Positions 447-64,000 of a stretch of DNA of 64,000 nt are shown here, piece by piece. How positions within the stretch are numbered: position 1 is the first letter of the stretch; each line of letters begins with the position of its first letter. The DNA lies in the NCBI GenBank assembly GCA_026874595.1, contig CM049306.1, positions 84,532,142-84,596,141 of the forward strand. The letters are read 5' to 3'. The translations under genes were made by a program, and so were the position numbers. The DNA is from Sipunculus nudus. Taxonomy: Eukaryota > Annelida > Sipuncula > Golfingiida > Sipunculidae. Below the pieces are notes generated by a model. The model had not been told where the DNA came from and did not search any database. It saw only the letters and a list, made by a program, of their open reading frames with translations.

Positions 447-3400
447 GTAAGTTGTTATATTGACTGTCTTTAAAAGTTTAAATTACAGCCTGCAGATAAA
501 TGTCATTTTAGAAATTGTCTTGACTTTATTAGGGATATCAAGGGCCCAGAAATATTAACATTTTGCATGGTGTATCATGAATATAAACATTTTGTTACAT
601 CATATATGTTAATAGTTTGGGACTTCGTATATCACATTTTTCAGACACTTGGAGCCCCTGAATATCAGTATTTCTTTACACTTTTCATTTCAGGGACAAG
701 ATCCTGTTTTACATGCAAACTAGCAGATAGTGTCATTGATTGATTAGCTAAATACATAAAAAGAATCCCAGGCAAATATATTAAGTTGTGCCTGGTCATT
801 TGATGAGAAGGATTACCTCAGGGCATCAATTTTTTTATGATAGCGCCAGTACTTATGCTCATAAATATATACAAAAAATGGTAATATGTGCAAAAATTAA
901 TATTCATGAACCTTTTATTTTTTAATTGAAATGTATGATATAAAAACAATTTAAAGAACAATATTCATGAGTCCTTACAAGTCTTCTGCACTGTGATAAC
1001 AGTTCATGATGGATTTCACATAAACACTTATAAATGAGGTTTCCCTTTAAATTGACATGCCATATATGTCAAAATAAAAAACTCCAGAATCAAAGCTATG
1101 GTAAGTGTCCTAAAAATTACAAAACCAGATACCAGATATATTCTTTAATGTAGTGTTTTCACCAACAGACATTAACTACTCATTTTAGGGAGTATAGGTA
1201 GAAACATCTTAATCACATAATATTGATACTGAGTATGATTTACTTAATGTGATTCCTATGCACAATATATGATTTTCCATGACTTAAGATATAGGTCTGT
1301 GTTATTAAAAGGGAAAGCCCTGGCAGCCAGTTACTTATTCTGAGTTATATACAAATAAAAGGTTTGTGAGGAATAGCTATTTTCCCACAGTGTAACTCTG
1401 TCATTTCAAACTGCAGTTCTGTTGCATATATGTAGTATTGTTCCCTTCAAACATAACTACTGAATCTGATTAACTGTTAATCAAAGTCTCGTTGTACACC
1501 AGTTCATAAACAAAACTATTTCGACATTTAATATATAAACATATTTTTGTATGAAATTGCAGTATTCATTTCATATCATTGTTTTATTATGAGCATAATC
1601 AGAAAAAAATGACATCATAAGTGCCCTTCTGAATTATAGTATTAAAATATAGAGACATTGTAATGATAGGTTAAATTGAGATGGGAAGACCAAAATTGCA
1701 GAGGTGAAATTTCAGAGTAATCTTGGTTTTAATTACTTTCAGACACCCTAAGTATGTATATCTATTTGTTTTTTAACATGTAACTTCAGATAGGGAAAAA
1801 TTAATTGATTGAAGTATGAAAGTTTTATGTTCACTTGTAAAAAGTCAACAAGTCATGTAAAAACAAAAAAAATGGTGTTTTTGACTTTCTTCCTTTCATG
1901 TAAGACAACCACGATTGAAACCCATGAAATATAGCCAGACAAGGTTGCAGTTATTGATTTTTGGTGCGGCTTTTGCTGCAAGAAATATTAGTTTGCTGTG
2001 AGTGTAGAGCTTTCGGTCTTTCTGCTTGTCTTATGAACACGGCAGATTGATTTTGGCCAGGAAAATATACACAGTGATTGATGTGGGTGAACAACTTAAC
2101 ATTAACATTGCCTGGTGTGTATACGAAGAAAACTGAAGCCTGGGTGGGTTAATCAATGGCTATGTTGGCTTTGCTTCCACACATTGACATAGGGTAGATT
2201 GGTCAATAGTGTAACCATAGTGATATGGTTGAGAAACAAAGCAAGCAGAGTTATTCAGAGCTGCTCTTATGGGATATTTGGTTCTTAAATATAACTTTAT
2301 ATTTTTTTATATAATATAATATTTTATCAACTAAGATTAAGTAAAAAAAAATACTTTTTTTTTAATTTACAAGATGACTCATCAGAACTTATTGTAATAT
2401 AGGCTTCCCATATCAGTATTAGATAAAACATTTATGAACATTTGCCTTTAAGTAATCATATTTTGGATATGTGACCAGTAAAGACATTATGGATATATAT
2501 TATTAACTGTCCTTGCCTGGCTGTAAAGACATTTAGAGTTAATTGATGAATTTGTCTCTTCATTTGTATGCTTAAAATTTAATTTGATTACATTCAGCCA
2601 AGCTCATTATTTGCAGTGGAATTGTACTTTCACTGTGTGCAAAACTGTGCTCAATTTTCTATTTGCAGCATGCAGACATGGGCACTTCCAACTTTAGTTT
2701 CACATTTAGAAATTTTTATCCATTTATTTAGTCTGCATAATTATTACTTGTATAAAAACCATCTAAATATGTATAAATGTTCTCTTCTGTGAACATTAGA
2801 AATATTTATATATTTATCTAAACTTTTTTCCATCATCCTTGTCCAACTGATTTTATGAGATACATCTTTCAAATGTATTTGTTAGCTACAAAGCTTCAAA
2901 TTTTATCACTCGAGTAAATATGGTGATCTATGACAATTTAAAGTGCCAAAAAAAATATGTTTACTTTGTTAAGTGGGGCAACGTTGAATAGTCTTAAAGG
3001 AGCTGCAAAAATGATGGTTTGATTAGAAGTGGCCATACCTGTTTCTCAATGGCATGTAATATGAGAGACGTATGTGTGACATCACAAGTGTTACATTACC
3101 CCTGAGAATCATAAATGTATAGGTTAAAATCTTCAGCTTATGCCATAAAATACATATGTCAAAATACTGTATATCTGTTTATGGTCACATTGCATATTGA
3201 AGTAATATCACATGGAATCCATACATGGGAGAGTATTATTTTGCTGTCAGATAATACTTTTTTTACATTTTTCTGACTTGCCTTTTAGGCAGATAAATGA
3301 AAACCTCGAGAACATTTAACAAAAAATATTGCTAAAAAGGGTGGATAGGTTAAATTGAATGGAGTATATAATTATATACCTACTTTCCTGTGATAACTTC

Positions 3401-4617
3401 ATCCAAGATTTGATGCCGCACTAAACAGTACATTCAGACATTGAAGGACAGCAAGTAAACTGTACTGTGATATAAAAAAGGTGTTGTGTGAAATCTCCCA
3501 GTAAATGCTCCTACATTTCTGTATGCTGTCAGTCAAATGCAGGTCATACAACAGATTGAACTGCTTCATGTAATAATGCTGAAAGATCATAGGTTCATTG
3601 TTTCTCATCTTGCAGTAGAATGAAACCCTCAAGGTTTCATAATGTGTATGAAGATAAGAATATATGACATCCCCCTCCCCCAAGGATGAAACATAATGCA
3701 GTGATTTGATAAGTCAGAAATATTAGGATTTACAGTGATACCTCATATTCTTATCAATGACATCTGGTGGTCATGCTTTGAATTTCTCTCTAGATCTATG
3801 CTATTCATCTGATCAAAATTGGTTCGATCATGACCTTATCTTCATTGCAAGATCAATGAATCATTAATAAATTGTCATGCAGTAAAATTAATTCAGTGTG
3901 TCCATTTTGCCGGAGTATCATTTGATGTGAAATTGATTTGAAGGACAATGCCCTACTTTTTTTTCTATTGTCTCTTAAAAGTTGATAAAAAATTTATACT
4001 GCATTATGCTTCATGTGTATGGAAATTTCAGGAAACAAAAATTAAACTTCAGCCATTACCAGCATTAGGGTTGTGCCATTATGGACACTGTATTTCTATA
4101 AGTGTTCTTTTATCACCTTTTTACACTTTTCTTACTGAGATAAATTGTACTTATTAGTGTACTTATGATGAATTAGATTCAATCATTTTGTAAATAATTA
4201 TAAAATAACTTAAAACAATTCAGGTAAGTTTCAATATGTATACTTTAGGACATTTAATAGGGGATCAGTGACAGCTGTATGAAGTGTAGCTTGTGCAGCC
4301 AGTTTTACCCCATTTAGCTACCCTGTAGAACTCACCCTACCCCATTGTTGCTTGCATGGAATCAACCAATCACTATATGGAACACCTGGTGTACACATTA
4401 TCTTTATATATTGATACCGATGTGTGTATAGTCCATTCCAACACTTGGCATCCACAGGCTTTCAGCAGAAATACAATATGCCTTGGGCAATCATGCAGGT
4501 TAGACTTATTTGTGATCTGTTTAGTCTTTAATATGAAATACAGTGACTATTTTAATATAAGTTTATGCAAGTCATGCCAGGAGTTTGAATGCCCTGAAAA
4601 GACAAATTGTGGAGAAA

Positions 4618-4681
<64 letters not shown>

Positions 4682-5992
4682 TCCATTATGATAACAAAGG
4701 TATCCCAAATCACACAATTATGAACACTTCTAGTTCACTTCAAAATTTTTGTAATAGATAAAGAATTGGAAAAAAATACTGAAATCTGTGGATTCCTGGT
4801 GATGGTTTGAACAAAAGACCACAATATACCTACCAGTATGATTTCATAATGACTAACATAATAACCCACATGTACTAATCAGCTCACTGTGGTTTGGTAT
4901 ATCATTTTAATTGTTCAGATGTCCAAAGGAGAGTTATCAGTTCAGGTGATTTGTACAACTGATTGAATCTTTATTCTTTATTCTTTTCTCAACTGTCCTG
5001 TGACATGATAAGCTTCAGTGGACAGAAAAACAACAATAGCAGTTTGTGTCTCTTTTTGTGACAGCGGTATTCCAGCATATTGGGCATACATCTTATTCTG
5101 GGTAATGTTGGAATAATTTCCTAAATAGTTTAATAAAGTTGAAAAACATAAATTTTGAATGAAAGTTGCACTGCTTTTTGTATTATTTGCCTCATCCCTT
5201 GTAGAATTTTATTTTGTATGAATACTTATGGTAGTAGTAGTCACATTGTAGATCTTTATGGTAGCAGAAGTCACATGACCCAAGTTGTCTCCAAGCAGTT
5301 TTCAAAAGCAGCCAGATTTGAACACCAATTGCATGGTCATATCCCTAGTTCTTGTGAATATGACTGAATTTATCTGTTGGTACTATGGAAAAAGTTTCAT
5401 TTCTGTGCATATTTTCAGATAAACTCTAATTGTAATTTGTCACTAATGTAGATGTGATTAGACTAGTTTTCCATAGAAATATGTTTGCATTACATAGATT
5501 GTTTTCTTCTTAACCTTTTTTTGTTATCCCCTCATTCTCTTTTTGTTAGATTCTGTTTGCTGTTAGTGTGAAATTAAAGTGTTCACTTTCATTTTAATGT
5601 ACAAATTACTTGAATCTGAATGGTAACCAGTGACTTATATTGTATGTAAACTGGCTGCACAAACTCTACATTAAATGTGCAATTTGTTTTGTGAAATAAG
5701 TAGCATGCATGATTCTCTCCACTCTTGCTAGAAATTTTGGGGATTCTAACATAGGCAAACCTTTGTTTTCAATTATATACTCAGGTGTACAAACTGAGAA
5801 ATACCTGGAATTTTCATCACAATCTGTATGTCCAGTATGCTGGAAATGTGCTCCTTATTGTGATATTTAATATATCAACTACTCACATTTTGTTCTAATT
5901 GAGCTATATGTGTGAATGAGTGTGTACTTTTGAAATCTTTTAATTCCTTTTCATAACAATGGGTATCATTTAATATTCTATAATCAGTACAA

Positions 5993-6048
<56 letters not shown>

Positions 6049-9000
6049 TTAACACAGTGTTTAACTCTCTGTACTGTTAAAATTTAACTTCTAAAATTCT
6101 TCAAAAAGAAGCTTTTTTAGGTTTATATTTTATTTGTGAATTTTAACTGGTCTTTTTAGCAGACCTGTGAGCATATGCGATAGTGTGCCATTCACCGTCC
6201 TTACATTAACCCATATTATCTCAAAAACAGCAAGAGCTATAGCATCACCAAATTTTATGAAAAAAAATCAGTCATCTAAAAAACTCTCAGATTTTGCTTA
6301 TTTTTCGTTATCTGCATTAACTTGGTAGATTTTAAAGACAAAAAGCTAAAAAAAACTTTTAAAATCTTCTAATTAAAAAAATGTCCAGACAAATCGTTAA
6401 ATATTTCACAGAAATAAATTCTGAAAAAATCTCTCTTAAGTTTGTTCAAATGGTTCCAGTTCGTTGAATTTAGGGTGAGTTTTGGGAAGCTGAACTGAGT
6501 CATTTGGCCAAAAAAGGATATTAAAATTACAATATCAGAAACAGTTAGAGCATCACAAAATTTTTGGCAGATTTTGTCACATGACTCATATTTGAAATTG
6601 AGGTATTGGTGGCACCATTTGCATCAACCTTTTTTGAATGAGGGATCATCAGTCGTCAGTACATTAACCCATAATTTCTCAAGAATAGCGTAAGCTAGCA
6701 TCCCCAAATTTCATGCAAAAACCTGTCACATATCAAATGTTGTGGTATTGAGCTTTTTGTGGTGCCAACTGCTTTAACTTGCATTTATGGGAAAAAGCTA
6801 AAAATCTTTTAAAAATCTTCTTCTCTGAAATCATTCAGTGTTCAATATTTCACTGAAATGATCCCAATTAAAGACCAGCTCTCTCAAGTTTGTTCAAATA
6901 TTTTGGGTTTGATTAATTTTGGCCAAGTTACAGGAATTTGAACGGAGTCATATGGGCAAGTGAGCATACTAACAAAACAATATAGGAAACTACACAAACT
7001 ACAAACAAAGTTTTGTGCAGATGTTAGTCACATAATGATTCATATTTGAAATTGCAGTTTTTGTGGTGCAACCTACATTGACCTTTGTTTTATGGGCAAA
7101 AACCTCATAATTTTAGTCTCTTTCAGCTTAAAAATGACTATGATGAAATTGTCAAGCTGAATCATTTAATTTTTCACAAGAATACTGTGGTTGGCTTTAT
7201 ATTCGCGAGGCTGAAATTTCGCGATTTCTTCATTTTGAGCGTTTCGCGAGGGTTTCATTTTCGCGATTGTAGCAGAACATATACCATCTAAGCACAGCAG
7301 TATACATATACATTGAATTTGTATTTATTTTAGTTTAGAACAAATCCTACAATAGCTCACTAATTTCAGGTTCTGTCATTCACTTATGACTTGTGTAACA
7401 GTTTATATATTTCATGTGATTACCGCGTGTTTCAGTACTGATTTGTTTTCTGATTATATTGTTTCTGTATGTGGGATAACTCTTCCCTTCCCCTCTTGTT
7501 CATCTTGGTTGATCAGGCTTTTTATTCCCGAGGGTTTAATATTCGCGATTATTTAATATTCGCGAATATCGTGAAAATAAAACCCTCGCGATTAAAAAGG
7601 CAACCACAGTAATCCTAGGGTAAGGTAGAAGTGTATATCCCTGCTTATGTTTTATGAGATTTTTGACATATCAGCTAGAAATTGGGCATATTTATACATC
7701 TCAGATAGCTTTGTCATATAGAAGACTTGTGGCACCACCTACAGTTGTTTTTGGTTTCATACATCTGTGCCTATGGTTCAAGAGTGTTTTGAAGTATCTT
7801 CCTGGAATTTTACATGTTCATACATCTTCGATGACTTTCTCATACACAAGACATATAGTGACACCTATTATCATTTTTCTGTTGTTCAGGTTTGCATTAA
7901 GCCTGTAAGCCTTGGTTTTAATATCAGGGTTTTCTGACTTATCTACTGTGGTTATCACATTCAGATATTTCCTACACCTCTCCCTAAAAGTGAAGGGTAA
8001 TGATAAAATTAACAACAGATATGAAATTATTCAAAGTCAAACTCATTCCAACAAATATGTAACAATTAATTATTAATATCAGTATTATATTAAACTTGTG
8101 ATTAATTTTTTTCTTCATTTGTCATAATCTGATTGATAGTTAAGATTTTATTTTCAAGAAAGCAGGTATTTAATATTGTATCAATAAAATGTATCTATTA
8201 AGGGGCATTGCATTCTGCTGTCTTGCAAATGTAACAAGAATCTGTATCTGGTACTAATAATAATTAACTGCATCATGAAACCATAAGCACCAAAGAGATA
8301 CTTAATACTTAAGCATTGGGATACAGGTTAGTTCTAAATTAGTAATGTGGAATTTCTGTTCAGTTTTACTAAGCCTAAGTCAGTAAACTTGATCATGAAC
8401 TGGAGTATTAGTAAATTTAGTTGTTTGGCATTAGCATATTTGAGACTGGTCTTATTTTACACTGGATGAATGATTTTTTTTACTTAGATTCTGTGAAACT
8501 TTTCCATGTATTGTGGTTAACATGTATATTTTGTTTTTATAAATGTTCCCTTCAGTTGGTAAGTAGGTGATTTGAAATAAGCTAAAATTGACCCAGATTC
8601 CTACATGCTTACCTGCCAAACATCATGTGATCATTTGTTGTTGATCTGATTGGTCATATCTACATTTCTGAAATAAAGATGCCTGTTAAAACAATAATTA
8701 AATTGTAGCACCATTAACATATCCGCCTTTTGATAGAGATTCTGATTTGATATGTCAAGAGATTGAAATGATTTTAGTTTTTAGCGAACCTGTGAGCTTA
8801 TGCGATGGTGCGTCGTCGTGCTTCGTGTGTCGTCTGTCGTGCGTGGTGCATTGTCCGTACGTTAACCATAGCTATCTCAAAATTGGCAGAAGCTAGCATC
8901 ACCAAATTTTTTGCAAATATTCATTCATCTGAAAAACTCTATTGGATTTTGTTTTTCTAACTGCATTTTCTTAGATTTTATAGGGAAAAAGCTAAAAAAG

Positions 9001-12000
9001 CTTTAAAAATCTTCTTCTCCAAAACTGTCCAGCCAAATTGTCCAATATTTCACAGAAATGATCCCTGGAACAATCTTTCTCAAGTTTGTTCAAATGGTTC
9101 CAGTTCGTAGATTTTTGGTCGAGTTACAGGAGGTTGAACTTAGTCATCTGTCCAAAAAAGCACACTAAAATTAAAATCTCAGAAACGGCTAGAGCTATAT
9201 TGACCCAATTTTATACCAATGTTTGTCACATATGTCATATCTGAAATTGAGGTATTGATGGCGCCACCTACATTGATGTGTTTTTTACAAGCGAAAATGT
9301 AATTTTAAACTCTTCTAGCTAATACACTGATTTATGATGAAACTGTTAAGCTGATTGGTTTAAACTTTACAAGAATTATTCTATGGTAGGGTTCTGCCGG
9401 TTTTATAAGAATAGATTGGGTAAATACAGCTTTAAAATAAAGCATTGTAGTCAATTAAAAAAGGCTTTTTGTGTTTGAAAACAGATTTGACAACATGCTG
9501 ATTTTCAGCAGCCAAGTCAAGAGGTCACTCAGTACAAACAGGTGGGGTCCAGACCTCACCATGGCAACTGACCTGGCTCTGGCGGGTGTCTAGACAATGT
9601 GTCTAGAAGTCTAGACACAGCTTCTAGGTGTCTAGACACGATGTCTAGATGCTGAATTCCTAGATTATTGGAACTATATCTTTCAACTGTTTGAAAAAAC
9701 TTGGTTTGCATTTTAAGCGAATCAGGTTTATTATTAGGTCACACGTGAACTGCTGCGCCCTCATTTTTGGTTGACCTCTGACCTTTCATTGCTGCCCAGT
9801 GTCCATTTGTACGTCTGTTTCCACACATAAACCCACATATCTCAGGAACCGTTTGACCAATCAGGCTAACAATTTTGCACAAATGTAGCCCTTTGATAGC
9901 TTTATAACATACATTAAAAATGACCTGCAACCATTTTTGCACAGCATCCATCTGTTCATCTGCCTTGGGATAAAATCACTCATATCTCAGCAGTGGTTTG
10001 ACTTTTCCACCTGAAGTTTTGCAGGTTTATACATCCTGGACAGCTTTCTCGATTTCATGACAGGTGGCGCCACCTACATTCAGGTTTACTCTGCAGACAT
10101 CCAAGCTCATATCTCAGGAACCGTTTGACCGTTTGGGCCAGAATTTTGCATGTGTATGGATCTCACATAGCTCTTCATCATAGGCAAAACTGGTGGCGCC
10201 ACCTGCAACCATTTATGCACAGCGTCCATATGATCATCTGCCTTGGGATAAAATCACTCATATCTCAGCAGTGGTTTGACTTATCCACCAGAAAATTTGC
10301 AGGTTTATACATCCTTGACAGCTCTCTCGATTTTATGACAGGTGGCATCACCTACATTCAGGTTTACTCTGCAGACATCCAAGCCCATATCTCGGGAACA
10401 GTTTTTAGCTCAGCTGACTATAAGTCATCTGAGCTATAGTCGTGGTCCATTGTCCGTCGTCCGTCCGTCTGTCCGTCCGTCTGTCCGTCCGTCCGTCCGT
10501 CCGTCCGTCCGTAGATGTGGCACGTTTTGAAACCATAAGACCTAGGAATCCAAAATTCAGCATAATGTTAGATGTCCCCAAGATCTCCTACCAAGCCGAA
10601 AAATGGGTCTTTGCGACTTCGTTCCTTTGAGAAATTAAGGAAAAACCTCAATTTTTTATTAAAATCCTATTTTCACACTTCAGGACTGCCTAATATAAAA
10701 ACCACTCATCTGTTTTTCCTCATATTTACCATAAATATTCCTCTATATACTTCCTATGAACATGCCAGAAATTAAGTCTGTAATGTATAAATTCTTTAAG
10801 TTATGGGCCCAAACAAAATGGACTTTGTAAAAAATCAGGAAAAATAATAACTCACTTAACATGAAAAATTTTGAAACTAGAGTCTATTTTCTCAAGTATA
10901 TAACTATGTTTAATTAAGATTCAATTGTTAACCCAAAATTAGATCTGAATTTTGTAAATTTTTTAAGTTATTAGCATAAAAAATAAATCAGTACCTTAAA
11001 TTTTGCCCATCTTTGACCATGGCACGTTTTTTACCTGTAAGCACCATTGATTTAATTTTCACAGCATATTAACATAAATATTTAGTGTGTCTAAATCTGA
11101 AATTTGAAAATAAAAGCTTAAAAAATTAAGTTAGTTATTGATTTTTTTTCTGTAGTCACTTGCTTTGATTACAGATGCAGGGTCCCACTCCAGGTCACTG
11201 GAAGTCAGCTATGCCAGGGTTTCTGATTTGTTACAGTCACTGGGGGAGATCCCCTGCTGTGACAGGTGTACAGTTATTCTCATATCACCACCCCAATCAC
11301 ACCCCCACCCCCCACCCCCCACGCAAACCCAACCCACCAAGTGTTATGCGGTAATTGTTATTGTTTTCACTGTATCTCCTTAATTGTAATGCTGTTTCCA
11401 CTCCGATATGCAAAAACTTTCCTTGAAAAAATAATGCAAGGTGTAATCCAGAAGATGCAATGTTGTGTAATGTAGCATTTTTAAAGAAATCAATGATTTT
11501 AACAAATATAATTGAACCCATCAGTATGCTTAAATTATTATAAAATATGAAGCACATTATGGATAAATAAAGACACAATTAAAAATTGTGAAATCTAAAT
11601 CAAGTATTATTTTTAGATATTTATTGTTTTGCAGATTTAAAAGATATATTTTTGTGGTAAAAAATAAATGAACATTTGTATGCATGATGTGGTGTTATCT
11701 GACAAGATTGAGATTTATGATGATGCAATTGAGAATTATGAATCAACTTTTATATTCAGATATATATGTTAAATTTGAAATGTATAGAAATTTAAACTTA
11801 AATTAGAAAATAATTGATGTGATAAAAAAATCAGGATTTAATACAAACATTTGTTCATTATTTTCCTGCCTCAGCAGAATTTGAGATCAGGCTTTGTTTG
11901 CCCTGTTTTATGTTGTTAATTAGCTATATTTCAACTGTATACATTTCATAAAAAAATACATATATATTTAATAATATATATTATACAAAAAAATAGATTC

Positions 12001-14720
12001 AATTGAACAAATGTGTAAACTACTGAAATGTCAACAGGTAATCGAAAAACCAACTAATGATCATGTTAATAGTACAGATCATTTGTTCACAAACTGCTCA
12101 CATGCTTTAGTTTCAACAGTAGAAAACACATGGTCAGGTCACAAAATATTTTTTGCAACAATTTCTTGCTCATCAATACAAACCAATCATATAAACCAAC
12201 CATGGCCTTTATTACTCTTCCTCTTACACTTTGTCTCCATTTGATATTATTTTAGATTTTTACCTTCAAGGTTAACGTCAGCTGAGCACAGTGACCCATA
12301 GGTCCCTTGTTTACGATTGGGCGAAATTTTTGCATGTGTATAGATCTCACATAGCTCTTCATCTTTGGCAAAACTGGTGGTGCCACCTGCAACCATGTAT
12401 GCACAGCGTCCATCAGTTCATCTGCCTTGGGATAAAATCACTCATATCTCAGCAATGGTTTGACTTATCCACCTGAAATTTTGCAGGTTTATACATCCTG
12501 GACAATTTTCTCGATTTTATGACAGGTGGCACCACCTACATTCAGGTTTACTCTGCAGACATCCAAGCTCATATCTCGGGAACTGTTTGACCAATTGGGC
12601 CAAAATTTTGCATGTGTATAGATCTCACATAGCTTTTCATCATAAGCAAAACTGGTGGCGCCACCTGTTAACCACTTATGCACAGTGTCAACCTGTTCAT
12701 CTGCCTTGGTATAAAATCACTCATATCTCAGCAGTGGTTTGACTTATCCACCTAAAATTTTGCAGGTTTATACATCCTGGACAGCTTTCTCGATTTTATG
12801 AAGGTGGTGCCACCTACATTCAGGTTTACTCTGCTGACATCCAAGCTCATATCTCAAGAACCAGTTGACTGATTTGGCCAAAATTTTGCTTGTGTATAGA
12901 TCTCACATAGCTCTTCATCATAGGCAAAACTGGTGGCACCACCTGCAACCACTTATGCACAGAGTCCATCTGTTCATCTGCCTTGGGATAAAATCACTCA
13001 TATCTCAGCAGTGGTTTGACTTATCCACCTGAAATTTTGCAAGTTTATACATCCTGAACAATTTTCTTGATTTTATGACAGGTGGCACCACCTACATTCA
13101 GGTTTACTCTGCAGACATCCAAGCTCATATCTTGGGAACTGTTTGACCAATTGGGCCAAAATTTTGCATGTGTATAGATCTCACATAGCTCTTCATCATA
13201 AGCAAAACTGGTGGCGCCACCTGTTAACCACTTATGCACAGTGTCAACCTGTTCATCTGCCTTGGTATAAAATCACTCATATCTCAGCAGTGGTTTGACA
13301 TATCCACCTAAAATTTTGCAGGTTTATACATCCTGGACAGCTTTCTCGATTTTATGAAGGTGGTGCCACCTACATTCAGGTTTACTCTGCTGACATCCAA
13401 GCTCATATCTCAAGAACCAGTTGACTGATTTGGCCAAAATTTTGCTTGTGTATAGATCTCACATAGCTCTTCATCATAGGCAAAACTGGTGGCACCACCT
13501 GCAACCACTTATGCACAGAGTCCATCTGTTCATCTGCCTTGGGATAAAATCACTCATATCTCAGCAGTGGTTTGACTTATCCACCTGAAATTTTGCAAGT
13601 TTATACATCCTGGACAATTTTCTTGATTTTATGACAGGTGGCACCACCTACATTCACGTTTACGCTGCAGACATCCATGCTGATATGCAACACACCTCAC
13701 TCTATTCCCCTTGGCACTTAATCCATGCCTCACTTCACCCATCCCACTCTGATTTCTGCGGATACACATAGTCGCTTGTTGACTACCCATATTCTAGTTT
13801 TAAAATGTCCTAGACTGAAACTTTCAGGTCCGAAACATCCATTTTGCTGAAATCATAATGACTAAGGTAGATATGCAAGACTTAAGAGGATCAATATTAA
13901 ATTTAAAAAATAAACCTCCATTCATACTCCCAAACTTTGCACAGGTTTGCATTAGGCCTGTAGGCCTTGTTTGGAATTTACATAAAAAAATCACCACCAG
14001 TTGTCTCCAGTGCAGTCTTATTTCTAATTTTTTTTTTTGCTCCTTAATCATAAGAAAAAGTTTTAGGTATAAAGTAGTATATATTTACCCATTATACATC
14101 CTAGAAGAGCAGTGTATTAATGACCTAAATGCAAGACTAAACTTGCAAACTGGTCTGTATAATATATCTTAATAGGATGACCTCTGGTGGTGATCACATG
14201 AACTTGAAAATGAAGAATGTAGTGTTGTGGAAGCTGAACCTGATTAGTGGAAATATTTTTTAACCATAAAAAAAAAATAAGTTGAAAAATAGTTTAATTG
14301 TATCCAATCGATATTAACAGAAATATCTAATTTTTCCATTTTGTCAGGGAATAGACATTTTAATGAATACTTAACATTTTTACACTTATATATTATCATT
14401 AACTTAATGACATCGCACTCTTAAAAATTACTTTTTTACTAAACATTCAGAGAAAATGTGTATGTATGTGACTGGTATTCAGTATTTATTTGCAAGGGTT
14501 TGAATGAATCAGTGAGAATACAGTTTGTGTGATCAACAGTTAACCAACAGTTTTTTGTATACTCTTCATAAGAATATATTGAATTACGCTTTTATGTTCT
14601 CTCTCTGTATTATACTATGTTATAGCCTGTGTTATTTCCATGATATAATCGCTTACTCTTCCCCTCTGATTCTGTTCTTCAGTGCTTGTACTGTCCTCAG
14701 TTTCCACTCCTCTGTGCTTT

Positions 14721-14756
<36 letters not shown>

Positions 14757-15452
14757 ATTATTGTTGTGTTTTTGGTATTTTACTTGTTGTAGTATGTTGC
14801 AATAAGAAATTAAGCATTAATGAAAAACATTGCAGTATCTACATTACAGTGGACTTTACCTGGTTCCAGTGATTTTAGTGGTGACTTGATCAGCTCTGAG
14901 CTACTTGATTTTGCTGTTTTTACAGTCAAATACTAATTTTATGTTTGTTCAATCTGTACAGTGGTACCATTAAACATTGTAAGATGATGCTTAATTGGTT
15001 GGCAGATCTTGTGATGGTAGTTACTCCCTCCCCTCTCTCTTCCCCTTTTCCCATTTTATAGGGGCTTGGGGGGTGCAAGTGTGTGCCTTTTGTGGGGGGG
15101 GGGGCTTTTAAGACTTTAATTTAGTCTGGTATCAGGTCTTGATTACTTCAACTGGTAATGTAATTTGGTTAACAAGTCATTAAAACAATAAACAAATGCA
15201 GTCTGATTACAAAATGTTCAGAAATTTCAGGGCTCATGCAGTTATTTATGTAACAACAGTTGGTGTCACTACTTCTTTGATAGTGTTTTCAAGTTGCATT
15301 ATTAACCTATGGCCAGAGGCCAACATCTTTACACAGGTAATATTAATATTTTGGAGTGCTTTAAAGTAAGCAAATGTTCAGTTTCTTTTAATAGAATAGA
15401 AATGATGGCTTCCCTTTGCATGTATATTTTAATACAAATGAAGATTATGTAC

Positions 15453-15530
<78 letters not shown>

Positions 15531-18500
15531 TATTGGTGTGTACCTTAGGACATATTTTGATACTTGTGTTCAAGTCAGGTAGCACTTAAAAAGTACTCAA
15601 GCCCTAAATTTACTACCCATTTAGCCATGCAAAGTAACATTGATTCCACATGCTTGGTTCACGTGGACTTTTTATTTACCCAACAGTGTCAGCTACCATA
15701 AAAAATCATTGTTATATCGACCATGCCTGGGGGTGTCTCATGTTAACATCCTTTAACAGCTTCAATGTGAAGGGGTGTCTGTTTTTTGTAACAAACTCAC
15801 ACATCCAGCACCACCCTGTTTGCTATTATGGGTGTAAAAAAAATACAGTTCTGGCACTAAACTCCATTTGATAGCCCTACTCTATATGTACAGGAGTTAT
15901 AACAAAACGAAAATCATTACACATAAAGTGATACCCATTTTTGCATTCAGAACATCAGGCATAGCCGTTTGGTGATCAGTGACGGACTTTAGTAGGTAAA
16001 ACACAGGGTACATTCATTTGCTGGAAAGTACTTATACTGTGTTTACTCAAAACAAAAAGTGGTTCTTAGTTTTGAGTGGTGCTACATGTACACTTTTTCT
16101 GGCTAAACTATCGGTTACAGAGGCATTGTCAGACAAAAGGAATAGTAAGAGTGCCCAGTTATTGTTGTGTCATTGATTGGCACTCATGAATGGCCAACTC
16201 TGTTTGGTAGCAGAATGGTGGGCATGGAAGCCTGAACCACAATAGTCCTAGAGCCCTTGTACCTACAGTCACCCTCAATGCATGGTTGCTATGGAATATT
16301 TATCCTTTCTTAAGATCTCTTACAGTGATTGACACACTCCATACGTCATTGGTTTGTTTAATTCTTTACCTTGACATCAGCATAAGAAATTTTAATGTGA
16401 TTCCTGCAGAGTCAATAACAGGATAAATATTTACTGTTGATTTTCAAAAAAGAGACATATATATACTTATGATTATAATCAGACAAAGCAGATTCTTAAA
16501 TTAACTTCACTTAAACCCAAAGTATCTCACCTGTAAAAGTATGAGATCTATAATAATAGGTAACCCACAGCATACACTTTTAAATGAAAAGAAAACTGTA
16601 GAAAACAATAAAATATTGCCTATCCAATCCTTACTTTATGTATCAGATATCCAGAAATACTAGTAAACATTATTGTACTTCATTTAAGGGTTTCTAATTA
16701 TGCTTTGTTATTGTTTTCTTACAGTATGATGATTTTAACTACACGAGACACCCTGTGTTGACAAAAGCTGTGTTTGCTGTGTTTGCAATACTTGTGCCCA
16801 TTCTGCTGTTGAACATGCTGATTGCTATGATGGGAAACACATATCAACAGATCATATCCAGATCAGCCAAAGAGTGGAGGAGACAGGTAGGTTGAAGGCT
16901 ATGATGATACATAGCACATATCAACAAACTGTATTCAGACCAGCTAAAGAGTGGAGAAGACAGGTAGGTTGAAGGCTATGATGATAAATAGCACATATCA
17001 ACAAACTGTATTCAGACCAGCTAAAGAGTGGAGAAGACAGGTAGGTTGAAGGCTATGATGATACATAGCACATATCAACAAACTGTATTCAGACCAGCTA
17101 AAGAGTGGAGAAGACAGGTAGGTTGAAGGCTATGATGATACATAGCACATATCAACAAACTGTATTCAGACCAGCTAAAGAGTGGAGGAGACAGGTAGGT
17201 TGAAGGCTATGATGATACATAGCACATATCAACAAACTGTATTCAGACCAGCTAAAGAGTGGAGGAGACAGGTAGGTTGAAGGCTAAGATGATACATAGC
17301 ACATATCAACAAACTGTATTCAGACCAGCTAAAGAGTGGAGGAGACAGGTAGGTTGAAGGCTATGATGATACATAGCACATATCAACAAACTGTATTCAG
17401 ACCAGCTAAAGAGTGGAGGAGACAGGTAGGTTGAAGGCTATGATGATACATAGCACATATCAACAAACTGTATTCAGACCAGCTAAAGAGTGGAGGAGAC
17501 AGGTAGGCTGATGGCTATGATGATACATAGCACATATCAACAAACTGTATTCAGACCAGCTAAAGAGTGGAGATTCGAAGACAGATAGGTTGATGGCTGT
17601 GATGGGTAACGCATATCAACAAATCATATCCAGATCAACTGAAACTTGTTTTATTTACACCTTGTGTGTTTTAAGAAGCAAGATTACTGTGCTTGCCGTG
17701 TTATTTTAATATTAGGCAAACTTAAAATCAACAATGAACTTAATTATTGAAATTTATATCATCCACATTAGTTATAGAGGTCACATTAAATATTAATTCA
17801 GTAATATCAAGATCAGAATTCATATTTATTCAGCGTATTTTCTTTATGCACTGTGTTTTGATTTATGAACATACCAGGTTATATTAATCAGTCATTTCAA
17901 AATATGTATTTTTTAATCATAGCATTGTCTAAAATGAAACAATAATGTGTCTGATTAATCTCATGAGAGATATTGTGTGTAAATTATTTTTCCAGTGGGC
18001 AAAAATTGTGATAGTTCTGGAGAGGACATTTTCTAGACAGCAGCTACTTAAGTACCAGGAAGAATACTCGGTTAAGCTCCTTGGGCGGGAAAATGACAGA
18101 GGTCTTATGGTGATCAAAACATCTGCAAAGACCAAAGCACGGCAACGTAAAGGGGCAATCTCTAACTGGAAGGTAAGTCACCAAGTTATCTTCACACTTG
18201 TAAGTGGATTTGTATATTTCTATTTAGAATGTTCATTACATGAGCTTGATATTTGGTATATTAGGAAAATAATCAACTTGGCTATATGTTCCTGTTTAAA
18301 TGCATGATACCATGACATGTTGTAAGAACAGTGAAACAAAAGAGCCTCTAGTGCCTTATCAAGAGAAAGAAAATTGCACCAGTCAAAAACTTCTTGTAAA
18401 GCAACCATGTAGGTTTGTGTAATTTAAATTTATTCTGGGTTTTGTTTCAGAAATTGGTTAAAGAGATAAAGGATCTGATCAAAGACCAGAAGAAGAAAGG

Positions 18501-19212
18501 TCGTGCAGGTCCTATAGATCTGACATCACAGGAGGTGGCTCTACACCAGCAGCGCAAACGTCAGTCCAAGATGGACCGCCAGTTGCTGGGGGCAGGGAGT
18601 GATGACTTATCAGCTTCAGCGGACGGGCTTTTATCGGCGATGACCCAGCTGGCATGGGAGAAAGACATCGATTTGATGAAAGCACCAAAGAAGGAAATTC
18701 CAGAGGAAGAGATAGCTGAATTAGAACAATCAATTCTAAAAGAGGATACAAGGACTGAATCTGTAAAATGTTTACCTAGCCCTCCGTCATCTAAGCTGGG
18801 CAAAGCTAGTTTGTCACAGGATAGTTCTCCTCTTAAGTCAGACAATACAAAACATGAGCAGGTCGGGATGAAGGAACTCCGAGGAGGTCATAGGTCAAAT
18901 AAAGTTGCACCGCAAGAGAAAGTGTCCTCAAAGAGTCCTACATCAGCTGATTCAGCATCACCAGTACCAGGTGATAATCCGCCACAAAAACACAATGCTT
19001 CCAATGTGATTGTCCCCAAGAAAAAGAAACCTCTTTTGCCGAAGAGTGCCAAACAAAGAAGTGGTTCAGGAGAATCCAAAGACTCTGCATTTTCAGAAGG
19101 AAAGCCAAAACCTTTGAAAGCTATGGATTCTAGAACAAGTTCTAATTCAGCATCTTCTCTGACTTCTTTGTTAAATGCGTGGGATGATAAACCACAAAAC
19201 AGCGATGTATGA
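340..19212 (+). CDS. TRPV cation channel, Inactive/OSM-9-like, C-terminal part (gene span, 4 exons)
   Basis: Joined exons 340-446, 16725-16886, 17996-18172 and 18451-19212 give 401 residues ending at a TGA. In order: a pore helix and filter segment ([17 protein letters not shown]), a hydrophobic S6 ending [14 protein letters not shown], the TRP box region ([16 protein letters not shown]), a conserved stretch ending [15 protein letters not shown], then a 250-residue tail. The [11 protein letters not shown] gate is typical of TRPV channels, and the post-TRP-box block resembles the insect Inactive / nematode OSM-9 branch rather than Nanchung; the subtype is from remembered family features. Such channels pass cations in sensory cells of ciliated type, usually as heteromers with a Nanchung/OCR-type partner. 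The ankyrin repeats and S1-S5 must lie upstream of the window. The gene converges on MCM2, 22 kb away. Confidence 0.85.
4622..4676. repeat. (TA)n microsatellite
   Basis: About 55 bases of uninterrupted TA dinucleotide. Confidence 0.98.
5995..6045. repeat. (AT)n microsatellite
   Basis: About 50 bases of AT dinucleotide just before the family C element at 6155. Confidence 0.98.
6155..7914 (+). mobile_element. Family C Helentron-like element, copy C1, carrying a nested MITE
   Basis: It starts in a T run with GCAGACCTGTG (6159-6169), a one-base variant of the family C 5' repeat GCGAACCTGTG. It ends with a diverged form of the 3' hairpin region (around 7897-7914). The body holds two or three diverged copies of a module containing ATCTCA...CACCAAATTTTATG and a GTGGTGCCA / GTGGCACCA block. 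The element is interrupted at 7183-7611 by a MITE. Confidence 0.65.
7185..7609. mobile_element. MITE with TIR CTGTGGTTG, TA target duplication, nested in C1
   Basis: Left end reads TA-CTGTGGTTGGCTTT and right end AAAAGGCAACCACAG-TA. The inverted repeats match over about 14 bases with one mismatch, and TA flanks both sides (7183-7184, 7610-7611). The interior is rich in TTCGCG and CGCGA motifs in both orientations. The empty site predicted by removing it reads like the intact family C element near 27700 (AAGAATTATC). TA duplication suggests a Tc1/mariner-type mobilising enzyme (inference). Confidence 0.8.
8778..9565 (+). mobile_element. Family C element, 5' portion (copy C2)
   Basis: The canonical 5' repeat GCGAACCTGTG lies at 8784-8794 after a T run, followed by a CGTCGTCGTG-type head. 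The body aligns by eye with the copy at 25523 to about 9395 and more weakly to 9565 (AAACAGATTTG, then TCAAGAGGTCACTCAGT). It then meets the family A element. The isolated family C 3' terminus at 13941-13972 may be its other end. Confidence 0.6.
9588..9650. repeat. 21-bp tandem repeat x3 with GTCTAGAC palindromes
   Basis: Perfect GTCTAGAC at 9588, 9609 and 9630, exactly 21 bases apart, each followed about 13 bases later by GTCTAGAA, a degenerate copy, and GTCTAGAT. There are five TCTAGA hexamers in 61 bases. Confidence 0.9.
10405..12310 (+). mobile_element. Family B Helentron-like element (copy B1), inserted in A1
   Basis: The 5' arm GCTCAGCTGAC (10408-10418) follows a T run, then a (GTCC)n head at about 10445-10512. 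Near the 3' end the arm is inverted as GTCAGCTGAGC (12277-12287), followed by a hairpin GACCCATAGGTC (12293-12304) and CCTTG|TTT. Removing it rejoins the family A unit text across the break (GGGAACAGTTT then ACGATTGGGC). The insertion is inside a T run. It contains no open frame that looks coding. Confidence 0.8.
10445..10512. repeat. (GTCC)n/(GTCT)n microsatellite head of B1
   Basis: This is a run of CCGT tetramers with a few GTCT variants, just inside the 5' arm. The same position is GTCC-rich in other family B copies. Confidence 0.95.
13941..13972 (+). mobile_element. Solo family C 3' terminus
   Basis: CAGGTTTGCATT, then GGCCTGTAGGCC and TTGTTT match the family C 3' end at 30226-30258. 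It may be the displaced 3' end of copy C2 (8778), with A1 plus B1 nested between; this needs an alignment. Confidence 0.6.
14721..14754. repeat. (CT)n microsatellite
   Basis: About 34 bases of CT dinucleotide. Confidence 0.97.
15455..15533. repeat. (TA)n microsatellite
   Basis: About 75 bases of TA with one CATA interruption near the end. It causes an artefactual open frame of alternating Ile-Tyr. Confidence 0.98.
16725..16886 (+). CDS. TRPV exon: S6 helix and start of TRP box
   Basis: Acceptor TTCTTACAG ends at 16724 and donor GTAGGT starts at 16887. It has 54 codons in phase 0, from [14 protein letters not shown] through the S6 [18 protein letters not shown] to SAKEWRRQ. The last 63 bases of this exon are the source of the 77-bp tandem array that follows immediately. 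Confidence 0.9.
16887..17646 (+). repeat. 77-bp tandem array derived from the preceding TRPV exon end plus its splice donor
   Basis: GTAGGTTG recurs at 16887, 16964, 17041, 17118, 17195, 17272, 17349 and 17426, with GTAGGCTG at 17503: exactly 77 bases apart. A ninth unit carries a 6-base insertion, followed by ATAGGTTG at 17585. Each unit matches the last 63 bases of exon 16725-16886 (GCTATGATG, CACATATCAACA, AAAGAGTGGAGGAGACAG) joined to the donor. A tenth partial copy at 17596-17646 is closer to the exon (GTGATGGGTAAC, ATCATATCCAGATCA). Reading into the array from the exon meets TGA at 16893-16895, so it is not coding. Confidence 0.95.
17647..17995 (+). other. TRPV intron, remainder after the 77-bp array
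   Basis: This is AT-rich sequence ending in the acceptor TTTTTCCAG at 17995. Nothing else is seen. Confidence 0.6.
17996..18172 (+). CDS. TRPV exon: TRP box and proximal C-terminus
   Basis: Acceptor TTTTTCCAG ends at 17995 and donor GTAAGT starts at 18173. It has 59 codons in phase 0, [18 protein letters not shown] to [15 protein letters not shown]. The invariant TRP-box tryptophan is its first codon. Confidence 0.9.
18451..19212 (+). CDS. TRPV last coding exon: basic, Ser/Pro-rich cytoplasmic tail
   Basis: Acceptor TTTGTTTCAG ends at 18450. There are 253 codons and a TGA. It begins [18 protein letters not shown], a charged probable helix, and continues as low-complexity Ser/Lys/Pro sequence with a basic cluster [15 protein letters not shown] near 19010-19060. 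It ends [18 protein letters not shown]. Tails of this branch vary in length and sequence, so function cannot be read from it; the basic cluster could bind phospholipid or calmodulin (inference). Confidence 0.85.
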   Translation, partial: KLVKEIKDLIKDQKKKGRAGPIDLTSQEVALHQQRKRQSKMDRQLLGAGSDDLSASADGLLSAMTQLAWEKDIDLMKAPKKEIPEEEIAELEQSILKEDTRTESVKCLPSPPSSKLGKASLSQDSSPLKSDNTKHEQVGMKELRGGHRSNKVAPQEKVSSKSPTSADSASPVPGDNPPQKHNASNVIVPKKKKPLLPKSAKQRSGSGESKDSAFSEGKPKPLKAMDSRTSSNSASSLTSLLNAWDDKPQNSDV

Positions 19213-20850: not shown

Positions 20851-22716
20851 ATGCCCCCGCCACAAAGTGGCCGGGGCATATAGTTTTACCCATGTCCGTC
20901 ATTCCGTCCTTCCTTCATTCCAAAATCAAACAGTTGAACGGACTTTTTTCGCAATGCCTGCAGATATTGGCCTGATTTTTTATGTGTTGGCAGATAATGA
21001 CCAGTTACAGATCGAGTTCACGTTTTGTCCCATTTGACCTTTTTACAGCTCCGAAACTTAGAAAATTTCATGAAAAATAGAAATTTTCATGACAAATACA
21101 CATGTACGGACTTTATTTCGCAATGCCTGAAGATATTGGCCTGATTTTTGGTGTGTGTGCAGATATTGACCAGTTACAGATCGAGTTTGCGTTTCGTCCC
21201 GGTTGACCTACTTTTGACCATTAACAGCTCCTTAATGTAGAAAATTTCATGAAAAATATATATTTTCATGACAAATACACATGTATGGACTTTTTTCGCA
21301 ATGCCTGCAGATATTGGCCTGATTTTTGATGTGTATTCAGATAATGACTAGTTACACATCGAGTTCGCATTTTGTCCCAGTTGACCTACTTTTGACCGTT
21401 TTACAGCTCCTAAACATAGAAAATTTCATGAAAAATAGAAATTTTCATGACAAATACACATGTACGGACTTTTTTTCGCAATGTCTGCAGATATTGGCCC
21501 GATTTTTGGTGTGTGGACAGATAATGACCAGTTACAGATCGAGTTCGCGTTTCGTCGCGGTTGACCTACTTTTGATTGTTTTACGGCTCCTAAACATAGA
21601 AATTTTCATGAAAAATATAAATTTTCACGACAAATGTATATGTACAGCCGTTTTTAGCCCTCAGCTCATAGGCTGATGGGCTATTGTCGTCACCCAAGAT
21701 GTCCGTCTATCCGTCCGTCCATCTGTCTGTCGGGTGCATGTCCGTCCGTCCGTCCGTTCCGCATCTGTTAACTTTTACCTTGTGAGCGGGATATCTCTAA
21801 AAGGATTCACCGTTGGAATTTTATTTCATCAGTGAAGATGTATATCGATAAAATCTCGGTCAAGTTCGAAGATGGGTGACCTTGACCCATTTATCTACAT
21901 TTTAGAGCTGATTATAGAAAAACACTCAGAAGCTTATATCTCAGGAACCATTGTGTGGATTTTCACAAAACTTACTATGATCATTGGGACTGATGGTCTG
22001 TACGTGCTACACAATTTTGGTGGCGTCACCTGCAATTTCTGATTTTTTAATGAAATTTTATCGGATTTTTCAATTTTGGCCTTTTGTGCAGGATATCTCC
22101 AAAGGTATTCAACTAAGGAACTTCATAACCTCAGTGCTTTTGCATCATATTTACAAAATCTTGGTCAAGTTCAAAGATGGGTGGTCTTGACCTACTTTTC
22201 AAGGTCACAGAGCTTAGTATAGAAAAAAACTTAGGGGGATATTTCTCAGGAAGCATTTGATGGATTGTTATAAAACATGGTACATACCTCTCCAATTTAA
22301 ATTTATAGCTGATTATTAGCTTTTGCTAATATTCTAGTTTCGCAATGCAATGCTTACAGATACTGGCCCAATGTTTGGTCTGTGGGCGCATAATGACCAC
22401 TTACAGATCAAGTCTGCGTTTCGTCCCAGTTAACCTATTTTTGACCATATGACAGATCCTGAACATAGAAAATTTCATGAAAGACAGAAATTTTTATGAA
22501 AAATGCACATGTATGGACTTTTTTTCACAATGCCTGCATACTGGCCTGATTTTTGGTGTGTTGCTTGATAATGATCCGTTACAGATCGAGTTTCATTTTG
22601 CCCTTCTTGACCTACTTTTGACCATACAACACCTGAACATAAAAAAATTTACAAAATTTAACAAATATTTCTAATTTGCCCCAGGCGGGGGCATTCGTGT
22701 CGTTCCGACACATTTG
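20851..22716 (+). mobile_element. Family D Helentron-like element, nested in B3 and itself carrying element E
   Basis: After a T run the 5' arm is ATGCCCCCGCC (20851-20861). The arm is inverted as GGCGGGGGCAT (22684-22694), followed by a perfect hairpin GTGTCG-ttc-CGACAC (22697-22711) and ATTTG|TTTT. The interior is a tandem array of about 180-bp units starting GCAATGCCTG (about 20950, 21119, 21298, 21478, then after the E insertion near 22352 and 22531). Each unit has TTTCATGAAAAAT-type palindromic text. Confidence 0.85.
21656..22337 (+). mobile_element. Element E, Helitron-like, inserted in a D repeat unit
   Basis: The 3' end has hairpin TATTAGC-tttt-GCTAATA (22314-22331), then TTCTAG|TTT with CTAG at 22334-22337, matching the Helitron 3' pattern. 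The 5' side begins AGCCCTCAGCTCATAGG in a T run, followed by a GTCC-rich head (about 21710-21760). Flanking D text rejoins across the break (GTACAGCCGTTTTT then TTTCGCAATGC). A diverged GGTGGCGTCACC lies at about 22019. Confidence 0.75.
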
Positions 22717-42034: not shown

Positions 42035-56206
<14,172 letters not shown>

Positions 56207-57419: not shown

Positions 57420-57800
57420 GCAGTGAGTGCCGGACCCGCAACAATTGAGCTATTGTCCGGCAGTTTTATTTTATGTCACTTATAAAGCAAAAAAGACACT
57501 GCCGGATCCGCATCAATTGAGCTATTCGTCCGGCAGTTTTATTTTATGTCACTTAAATAGTAAAAGAGACGGTGCCAGACCCGCAACAACTGAGCTATTC
57601 GTCCGGCAGTTTCATTTTATGTCACTTATAAAGCAAAGAAAACACTGCCAGATCCGCATCAATTGAGCTATTCGTCCGGCAGTTTTATTTTATGTCCCTT
57701 AAATAGTAAAAGAGACGGTGCCAGACCCGCTACAACTGAGCTATTCGTCCGGCAGTTTTATTTTATGTCACTTATATAGTAAAAATAGTCAGTGCCGGAC
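57420..57800. repeat. 73-bp tandem array of alternating subtypes
   Basis: GAGCTATT(C)GTCCGGCAG recurs at 57447, 57519, 57592, 57665 and 57738 (72-73 spacing). Linkers alternate: CACTTATAAAGCAAA then CACTTAAATAGTAAA, then the first again. Each unit has an inverted repeat, TGCCGGAC (or TGCCAGAC) and GTCCGGCA, about 20 bases apart. Confidence 0.93.
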
Positions 57801-61597: not shown

Positions 61598-64000
61598 CTA
61601 GACATTTCTTGGCACCGCAGGTGCCAGAGTATCCCCAGACATAGTAGGCCCCCCTTCTTCAAGAACAGACCCCCATTTTTAGCAGCATATACTGACACTT
61701 GGCATATTTATTGTTTATTCCATCTAACGATCCACAATCTTGTTGAAGATGTTGGTCCTGTGACCTTGATCTTTTAAAAGATGTGTCCTGTGACCTTGAC
61801 CTTTGATCTCATAACCCCAAAATCAATTTGGGTCTTGCTTTTCCAATGGGACATATGCAAGTCAAGTTTGAAATCTATATATCAATAAAGCAGGAATTAT
61901 CATCCAGAAACTTATTTTTGGATAGATGGCTCCTGTGACCTTCACCTTTGACCTCAAAATTGATAGTGTTCTTCCTCTCTTGGCAGGAGAACTATATGTG
62001 CAAGATGAAAGATATGAGATAAAATGTTTGGCTGAAAATGCATCCACATCTTTTTAAAGATGTGTCCTGTGACCTTGACCTTTGACCTCATGACCCCAAA
62101 ATCAATTTTGGTCTTACTTTTCCAATGGGACATATACAAGTCAAGTTTGAAATCCATACATCAATAAAAGCAGGAATTATCATCCAGAAACTAATTTTTG
62201 GACATATGGCTCCTGTGACCTTCATCTTTGACCTTGTGACCTCAAAATTGATAGGGGTCTTCCACTCTTGGCAGGTGAACTATATGTGCAAGAGGAAGGA
62301 TCTGAGATGAATTGTTTGGCTAAAAATGCATCCACAATCTTTTTAAAGAGGTTTCCTGTGACCTTGACCTTTGACCTTATGACCCCAAAATCAATTTGGG
62401 TCTTGCTTTTCTAATGGGTCAATAACAAAGCCAAGTTTGAAATCCATACATCAGTAAAAGATGGAATTAAAATCCAGAAACTAATTTTTGGACAGATGGC
62501 TCCTGTGACCTTCACCTTTGACCTTGTGACCTCAAAACTGATAGGGTTCTTCCTCTCTTGGCAGGTGAACTATATGTGCAAGATGAAAGATCTGAGATGA
62601 AATGTTTGGCTGAAAATGCATCCACATCTTTTTAAAAGATGTGACCTTGACCTTTGACCTCATGACCCCAAAATCAATTTGGGTCTTGCTTTTCCAATGG
62701 GACATATATAAGTCAAGTTTGAAATCCATACATCAATAAAAGCAGGAATTATCATCCAGAAACTAATTTTTGGACATATGGCTCCTGTGACCTTCACCTT
62801 TGACCTTGTGACCTCAAAATTGATAGGGGTCTTCCACTCTTGGCAGGTGAACTATATGTGCAAGATGAAAGATCTGAGATGAATTGTTTGGCTGAAAATG
62901 CATCCACAATCTTTTTATAGAGGTTTCCTGTGACCTTGACCTTTGACCTTATGACCCCAAATTCAATTCCGGTCTTGCTTTTCCAATGGGTCAAATACAA
63001 GTCAAGTTTGAAATCCAAACATCAATAAAAGAAGGAATTATCATCCAGAAACTAATTTTTGGACAGATGGCTCCTGTGACCTTCACCTTTGACCTTGTGA
63101 CCTCAAAACTGATAGGGTTCTTCCTCTCTTGGCAGGTGAACTATATGTGCAAGATGAAAGATCTGAGATGAAATGTTTGGCTGAAAATGCATCCACATCT
63201 TTTTAAAGATGTGACCTTGACCTTTGACCTCATGACCCCAAAATCAATTTGGGTCTTGCTTTTCCAATGGGACATATATAAGTCAAGTTTGAAATCCATA
63301 CATCAATAAAAGCAGGAATTATCATCCAGAAACTAATTTTTGGACATATGGCTCCTGTGACCTTCACCTTTGACCTTGTGACCTCAAAATTGATAGGGGT
63401 CTTCCACTCTTGACAGGTGAACTATATGTGCAAGATGAAAGATCTGAGATGAATTTTTTGGCTGAAAATGCATCCACAATCTTTTTAAAGAGGTTTCCTG
63501 TGACCTTGACCTTTGACCTCATGACCCCAAAATCAATTTGGGTCTTGCTTTTCCAATGGGACATATATAAGTCAAGTTTGAAATCCATACATCAATAAAA
63601 GCAGGAATTATCATCCAGAAACTAATTTTTGGACAGATAGCTCCTGTGGCCTTGACCTTTGACCTTGTGACCCCAAAATTTATATGGATCATCCATTATT
63701 GGCAAGTGAGCTATATATTCAAGATGGTAGACCTGGGATGAAAGTTTGGCTTAAAATGCATCCACAGTATCTTTTAAAATGCCAGTCCAGTGACCTTGAC
63801 CTTTGACCTCATGACCCTAGAACCTATAGGGTTCTTACTTTAGTGGTTGGCCATACATAAGTCATGTTTGAAATCCATATGGCTATCAACACTGGAGATA
63901 TCATAAAAGGTGTGTGATATTCACCATATATGGCAATATTCAAGGTCAAGGCAACTATCATAGGAAAGGTCATGACCCCAATTTAAATAAGCATCATCCC
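61598..64000 (-). mobile_element. Element F: Helitron-like 3' end plus a roughly 290-bp tandem array running off the window
   Basis: On the minus strand it ends with hairpin TGGCACC-tgc-GGTGCCA (plus 61610-61626), AGAAATGT and CTAG (plus 61598-61601) followed by T. To the right, units of about 285-290 bp repeat to the window edge (ACTAATTTTTGGAC at about 62190, 62480, 62765, 63050, 63340, 63620). Each is made of two diverged halves of about 145 bp, both starting GTGACCTT(G/C)ACCTTTGACC. Outer units (61630-61900 and 63640-64000) are more diverged than central ones. Confidence 0.8.

Follow-up and report, generated by a model that had tools for sequence, protein, structure and literature searches.

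Locus and gene structure

The window, that is, the whole stretch of 64,000 nucleotides that was analyzed (G+C 36%), carries on its plus strand exons of a TRPV channel gene and, at the start of one of its introns, a tandem array built from the end of the preceding exon. The parts of the gene are as follows.

16725..16886, plus strand: S6 exon of the Inactive/OSM-9-type (TRPVA) TRPV gene, 162 nt in whole codons, assigned by phmmer, Pfam and the open joined frame
16887..17995, plus strand: intron 3' of the S6 exon, 1,109 bp, from donor CAG/GTAGGT to acceptor TTCCAG/TGG
17996..18172, plus strand: TRP-box exon (WAKIV...), 177 nt, followed by donor AAG/GTAAGT
18451..19212, plus strand: third coding exon with the stop codon, in frame with the preceding two

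The translation of the S6 exon begins YDDFNYTRH..., the exon ends at CAG/GTAGGT, and the three exons (16725-16886, 17996-18172 and 18451-19212) join into a single open frame ending in a stop. A phmmer search of PDB with the S6 and TRP-box exons as one query matched insect Inactive (9nvn_B, E = 1e-37) without a gap across the junction, with Nanchung (1.4e-15) and TRPV4 (3e-9) both behind it. Judged by similarity, the gene is of the Inactive/OSM-9 (TRPVA) type, its S6, TRP box and following region being closest to Inactive among solved structures. Pfam recognized Ion_trans in the S6 exon (1.4e-07), gave a single weak, sub-cut-off match for the TRP-box stretch (E = 0.061) and assigned no family to the third coding exon at 18451-19212; with no useful Pfam match for the two following exons, the TRPVA assignment of the TRP-box exon comes from the PDB search. 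For the Pfam search and the self-BLAST described below, the TRP-box exon interval was taken from 17993. The match to Inactive and the open joined frame bear out the first-pass annotation in placing the array in the intron that follows a TRPV S6 exon. Inactive-type TRPVA genes are described in molluscs and cephalochordates alike (PMC9664204).

Searches for the upstream TRPV exons (ankyrin repeats and S1-S5) returned no PDB match from three X-masked plus-strand frames of 1720-16720 or from one frame of 12720-16719, and no Pfam match in two of the three frames of 5000-16701; as a control, a shorter query containing the known exon did match. The preceding intron may be very long, or the upstream exons may have been missed or may lie outside the window. 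Contig L001, filed under a gammaproteobacterial MAG, has at 3080-3187 a TRPV-like coding stretch with 44% identity to the S6 exon, perhaps through eukaryote contamination. Among viral contigs, the S6 exon had no relative and one repeat motif no match.

Anatomy of the array

TRF reports a single array at 16838-17572 with a period of 77, 9.5 copies and 97% matches. Aligned on the donor, it resolves into the following copies.

16887..17502, plus strand: units 1 to 8, exactly 77 bp each, consisting of GTAGG and 72 nt that go back to the exon end and include a 3-bp insertion; each ends in CAG
17503..17584, plus strand: unit 9, 82 bp, donor GTAGGC, exon-like states at two columns
17585..17643, plus strand: edge copy, the tenth, partial and diverged; its donor is lost (CAG/ATAGG), and the 3-bp insertion and the last exon bases are absent

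An earlier description of nine 77-bp units of exon end plus donor holds for the nine donors and for eight of the lengths; unit 9 carries a private 5-bp insertion near its end. Between any two of units 1 to 8, 0-3 of the 77 positions differ (mean 1.04), units 1 and 3 being identical to each other, and likewise units 4, 5, 7 and 8; several unit variants follow one another in an ordered pattern. The tenth copy begins at about 17585, and its far end depends on the query, BLAST alignments stopping at 17637 with the exon and at 17643 with exon plus array. The mean difference of about 1% suggests that units 1 to 8 were amplified or homogenized comparatively recently. To judge by the exon-like columns of unit 9 and the shortened tenth copy with its lost donor, the array seems oldest at its far edge.

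Origin from the S6 exon end

The repeat derives from the final 69 exon bases (16818-16886) together with the first five bases of the intron, GTAGG. The proposed origin from the 3' end of the exon plus its donor is therefore supported, as far as the window can tell, with an exon part six bases longer than the 63 first claimed. The TTG that follows GTAGG in GTAGGTTG is also exon-derived, which corrects the earlier reading, because unit 9 has CTGATGG and the tenth copy TTGATGG at the place where the exon has CTGATTG. With 69 exon bases and GTAGG in each unit, the segment duplicated originally would have been about 74 bp long, and the 3-bp insertion turns this ancestral unit into one of 77 bp.

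The match between exon and array is not due to chance. The best local score is 34.5 both for the exon against the tenth copy (shuffle maximum 15.5, n = 1,000) and for the exon against the whole intron (shuffle maximum 13.0, n = 500), far above the shuffles in each case. Elsewhere in the window, scanned up to its last ~1.7 kb, the exon end reaches 13.0 at best and the unit stays below 22. Self-BLAST covered seven exon intervals, the three of the TRPV gene and four open frames treated as exons of MCM, three of which overlap Pfam hits. It found copies of the S6 exon only, and across the whole window no further copies of this exon appeared at E <= 1e-4. A closer match of the units to some sequence other than the exon, which would speak against the proposed origin, was thus looked for within the window and not found. 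An origin from a dispersed repeat or transposon was considered and rejected, with nothing similar in the rest of the window.

The relation between exon, units and tenth copy was examined over the 57 columns that they have in common. The exon and the tenth copy agree at 47 of these, the exon and the unit at 42, and the unit and the tenth copy at 44; the difference between 47/57 and 42/57 is not significant (Fisher P = 0.37). Where the three differ (19 columns), the unit has a private state in nine cases and the tenth copy in four, and in six the exon stands against both copies. Of these six, one falls at the junction of the duplication; of the remaining five, our reading of the alignment makes four synonymous in the exon. 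These four may consequently be changes that the exon acquired once the duplication was in place, and this would speak for an old event. The suggestion that the tenth copy preserves the first duplication is supported in that this copy is nearer to the exon (modestly, given the above P value) and is free of the 3-bp insertion; but since the six columns also unite it with the units, an edge copy that escaped amplification is a better reading than an untouched first duplicate.

The unit departs from the exon in 16 of 74 aligned columns. Despite differences in 15 of 72 columns overall, the last 18 bases of the exon are identical to the consensus of units 4 to 8 (P = 0.007 under an even spread of the differences), while units 1 to 3 and 9 have one difference within the same 18 bases. 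Plain neutral decay does not account for this identity, which might reflect exchange with the exon, or selection or constraint on the neighborhood of the donor.

Donors, reading frame and acceptors

Two features bear on splicing.

16887..16892, plus strand: authentic donor GTAGGT (donor 1); identical donors at 16964, 17041, 17118, 17195, 17272, 17349 and 17426, and GTAGGC at 17503 (donor 9)
16893..16895, plus strand: in-frame TGA, which would be read by any transcript spliced from donors 2 to 9

The nine GTAGG sites follow each other in exact 77-bp steps, and the eight further GTAGG(T/C) donors announced by the first-pass annotation are thus all present, at 16964-17503. Donors 1 to 8 read CAG/GTAGGTTG and donor 9 reads CAG/GTAGGCTG. 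Paired with the 5' end of U1, donors 1 to 8 have a predicted duplex of -11.4 and donor 9 one of -10.7; among the 69 GT sites of exon and intron, the best after these reaches -6.2. Over the whole window, 11 of 3,476 plus-strand GT sites, donors 1 to 8 among them, pair with U1 at least as well as the authentic donor. Since donors 1 to 8 have equal predicted pairing and nearly equal exonic context, sequence alone gives no preference for the first. In classical experiments with duplicated donors, the one nearest the acceptor was often favored.

The reading frame does distinguish the donors. From donor 1 alone is the exon at 17996 reached in an open frame; donors 4 and 7 preserve the phase yet include the TGA, which sits 68-607 nt upstream of the junction for donors 2 to 9. 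The earlier statement holds that a transcript from any donor beyond the first would run into the TGA at 16893, truncating the channel immediately ahead of the TRP box (WAKIV...), and the frame check agrees with it. Judged by the frame, donor 1 is probably the one in use.

Pseudo-exons inside the units were also considered and rejected as unlikely, because the AG sites there are weak acceptors, scoring no higher than -1.56, whereas 16725 reaches 6.0 and 17996 reaches 1.74. These scores come from a coarse acceptor model, in which a site outside the array, 17716, scores 1.88 and so lies slightly above 17996.

A predicted hairpin around the donor

16873..16946, plus strand: predicted RNA hairpin enclosing donor 1, MFE -20.0, z -3.1 (1 of 200 shuffles as good)

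This 74-nt predicted hairpin has the arms GUUGA/UCAAC, GCUAUG/CAUAGC and ACAG/CUGU. The same fold is predicted at donor 4 (17104-17177, MFE -20.5, z -3.9, 2 of 200 shuffles as good) and a close variant of it at donor 9, while the matching stretch of the exon (z +0.5) and the tenth copy (z -0.9) have no predicted hairpin. As DNA, the unit gives z -3.6 on the plus strand and -1.4 on the minus strand. The fold of the whole array as RNA has z -6.1 (20 shuffles), to which we give little weight because shuffling destroys the repetition; the single-unit folds were used instead.

Several of the unit-private changes appear by eye to build the hairpin arms. Variants randomized at the changed positions folded as well in 81 of 3,000 cases, and random mutants did so in 468 of 3,000, so the gain of the hairpin is suggestive only and modestly unusual. 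On the strength of this one case and of predicted folds, the hairpin may explain, through hairpin-aided slippage, why the amplified unit expanded and its sister, the tenth copy, did not. Since the amplified copy is predicted to form the hairpin and its unamplified sister is not, the two together suggest, in a form open to testing, how one duplication may turn into a minisatellite. The hairpin is predicted equally at donor 1 and is therefore no mark of decoy donors.

Comparison with known systems

The closest counterparts are the "mirage" minisatellites of lancelets, tandem units that extend across exon-intron boundaries and include splice signals, reported for Adh3, BflGb6/BflGb9, troponin C and PGBD5 in PMC3087553 and PMC3902484. 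According to the same papers, 3' exon boundaries are also affected (BflGb9), unit lengths range from 10 to 160 bp, and length instability together with undisturbed splicing has been observed; in the BflGb6 mirage of amphioxus the inner units are homogenized and the edge units excluded (PMC3087553). The TRPV unit likewise crosses the exon-intron boundary, with its 69 exon bases and GTAGG. As in mirages, where many but not all units have AG/GT, nine donors including the authentic one are intact and that of the tenth copy is lost, and units 1 to 8 are homogenized (0-3 differences) beside a diverged unit 9 and tenth copy. Unlike the lancelet cases, in which splicing and length instability were studied, the array has nine donors at exact 77-bp steps and lies in a TRPV gene. 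By its structural features, the TRPV array is a further case of the mirage kind, which is itself already named and published. If the host is not a lancelet, mirages would extend beyond the group for which the literature surveyed uses that name.

Outside lancelets, the relevant cases that we came across are IFI6, human internal repeats and intron gain by tandem duplication, and there may be others; the passages of PMC2206037 consulted do not mention boundary repeats. In the human IFI6 (6-16) minisatellite (Turri et al. 1995, as cited in PMC4526556), the repeat gives several consecutive donors, and use of two downstream repeat units leads to three mRNA species encoding different isoforms. The TRPV repeat resembles it in supplying consecutive donors. 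The extra repeat units of IFI6 make an in-frame insertion, whereas the TGA directly after TRPV donor 1 means that later donors would truncate the protein rather than add a readable in-frame segment. For human segmental duplications, PMC2812944 describes internal tandem repeats at exon-intron boundaries, whose minisatellite expansion can alter splicing, and checks 27 intron and 53 exon modifications, including novel introns, against transcripts; no new intron is evident in the TRPV array as read from DNA. The model of Rogers for intron gain by tandem genomic duplication, as given in PMC3443670, involves copying of a stretch containing AGGT, as happened here; unlike in that model, where the duplicated AGGT furnishes a new intron with donor and acceptor alike, the frame-keeping acceptor at 17996 lies outside the array, the internal AG sites are weak and, again, an intron has not evidently been gained.

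Interpretation

We favor, with a probability of roughly 0.78, the reading of the array as a mirage-type minisatellite, an old tandem duplication of about 74 bp that was later amplified and homogenized and is spliced out from donor 1. Long ago, a tandem duplication of the last 69 exon bases and first five intron bases would have left the intron opening with another exon end and donor, a duplicate that was free to diverge. One descendant copy would then have acquired the 3-bp insertion and the donor-enclosing hairpin, and its recent amplification and homogenization, by unequal exchange or slippage, would have produced eight or nine units while the edge copy decayed. The array would be intronic in nearly all transcripts, with splicing from 16887 to 17996, and occasional use of donors 2 to 9 would yield early-stop mRNAs that are cleared by quality control. 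Such a silent array is supported by published mirages, which are reported not to disturb splicing (PMC3087553 and PMC3902484). The lancelet PGBD5 gene model, which annotates repeat sequence as exon (PMC3902484), counts against a wholly intronic array.

Regulation by decoy donors is possible. The eight extra donors could compete with donor 1, so that the share of TGA-bearing transcripts, and with it the number of repeats, would tune channel dosage. The donors are equal and their exonic context is common to them, and with any extra donor the stop would precede the junction by 68 nt or more, farther than the 50-55 nt usually required for premature-stop decay. Human IFI6 does use extra repeat units as donors (PMC4526556), but the mirages are reported without aberrant mRNAs (PMC3087553 and PMC3902484), and apart from the identical last 18 bases we found no signal of selection on the array that its recent amplification would leave unexplained, which leaves such dosage tuning unlikely. 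An extended version of this scheme, in which the donor array, through an inherited and perhaps somatically variable copy number, controls mechanosensory-channel dosage, decoy stops cause decay in proportion to the repeats, and the hairpin of one diverged copy both wraps the donors and drives expansion, is in our estimate very improbable. The same stop, only two codons past the exon, and the location of S6 and TRP box on separate exons would also permit a truncated isoform, ending in VG after S6 without TRP box and tail, to act as a dominant-negative subunit; with the stop 68-607 nt before the next junction, decay of its mRNA would be expected, and we regard this as scarcely credible.

Two further explanations concern the array itself. 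The number of units may have been inflated or collapsed by assembly in an otherwise real duplication, as identical units (1/3 and 4/5/7/8) make copy number hard to assemble and the BflGb6 mirage of lancelet was seemingly misassembled in a draft genome (PMC3087553). Such an error would alter the count, but it cannot create the ordered variants, the private 5-bp insertion or the diverged edge copy, and we consider it quite unlikely. That the array is a remnant of a decayed, once-functional duplicated (mutually exclusive) exon would fit the exon-like open frame of the tenth copy and its freedom from the 3-bp insertion of the units. The likeness is confined to the last 69 exon bases, however, with neither the acceptor nor the exon start copied, and of the 18 codons that were compared in exon and tenth copy, eight differ, five of them with a change of amino acid, so that this origin is hardly plausible.

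Eight donors of the same sequence, in nearly the same exonic context, and a ninth, placed at exact steps before one acceptor, constitute a natural experiment on how the spliceosome chooses by position alone.

Other features of the window

The window gave no Rfam match at gathering scores, no tRNA and no 20-mer reported in at least four separate places. TRF found other long-period arrays at 12314-13686 (278 bp), 21033-21635 (180 bp), 49109-50508 (280 bp), 57426-57800 (73 bp) and 61769-63817 (289 bp), which suggests that this genome often forms such arrays; by coordinates, none of the five overlaps the seven exon intervals used for self-BLAST. Exons of an MCM helicase gene, which we take to be MCM2-like, lie on the minus strand at ~48510-55640 and match the Pfam MCM P-loop, OB and N-terminal domains. 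The span of this gene encloses the 280-bp array at 49109-50508.
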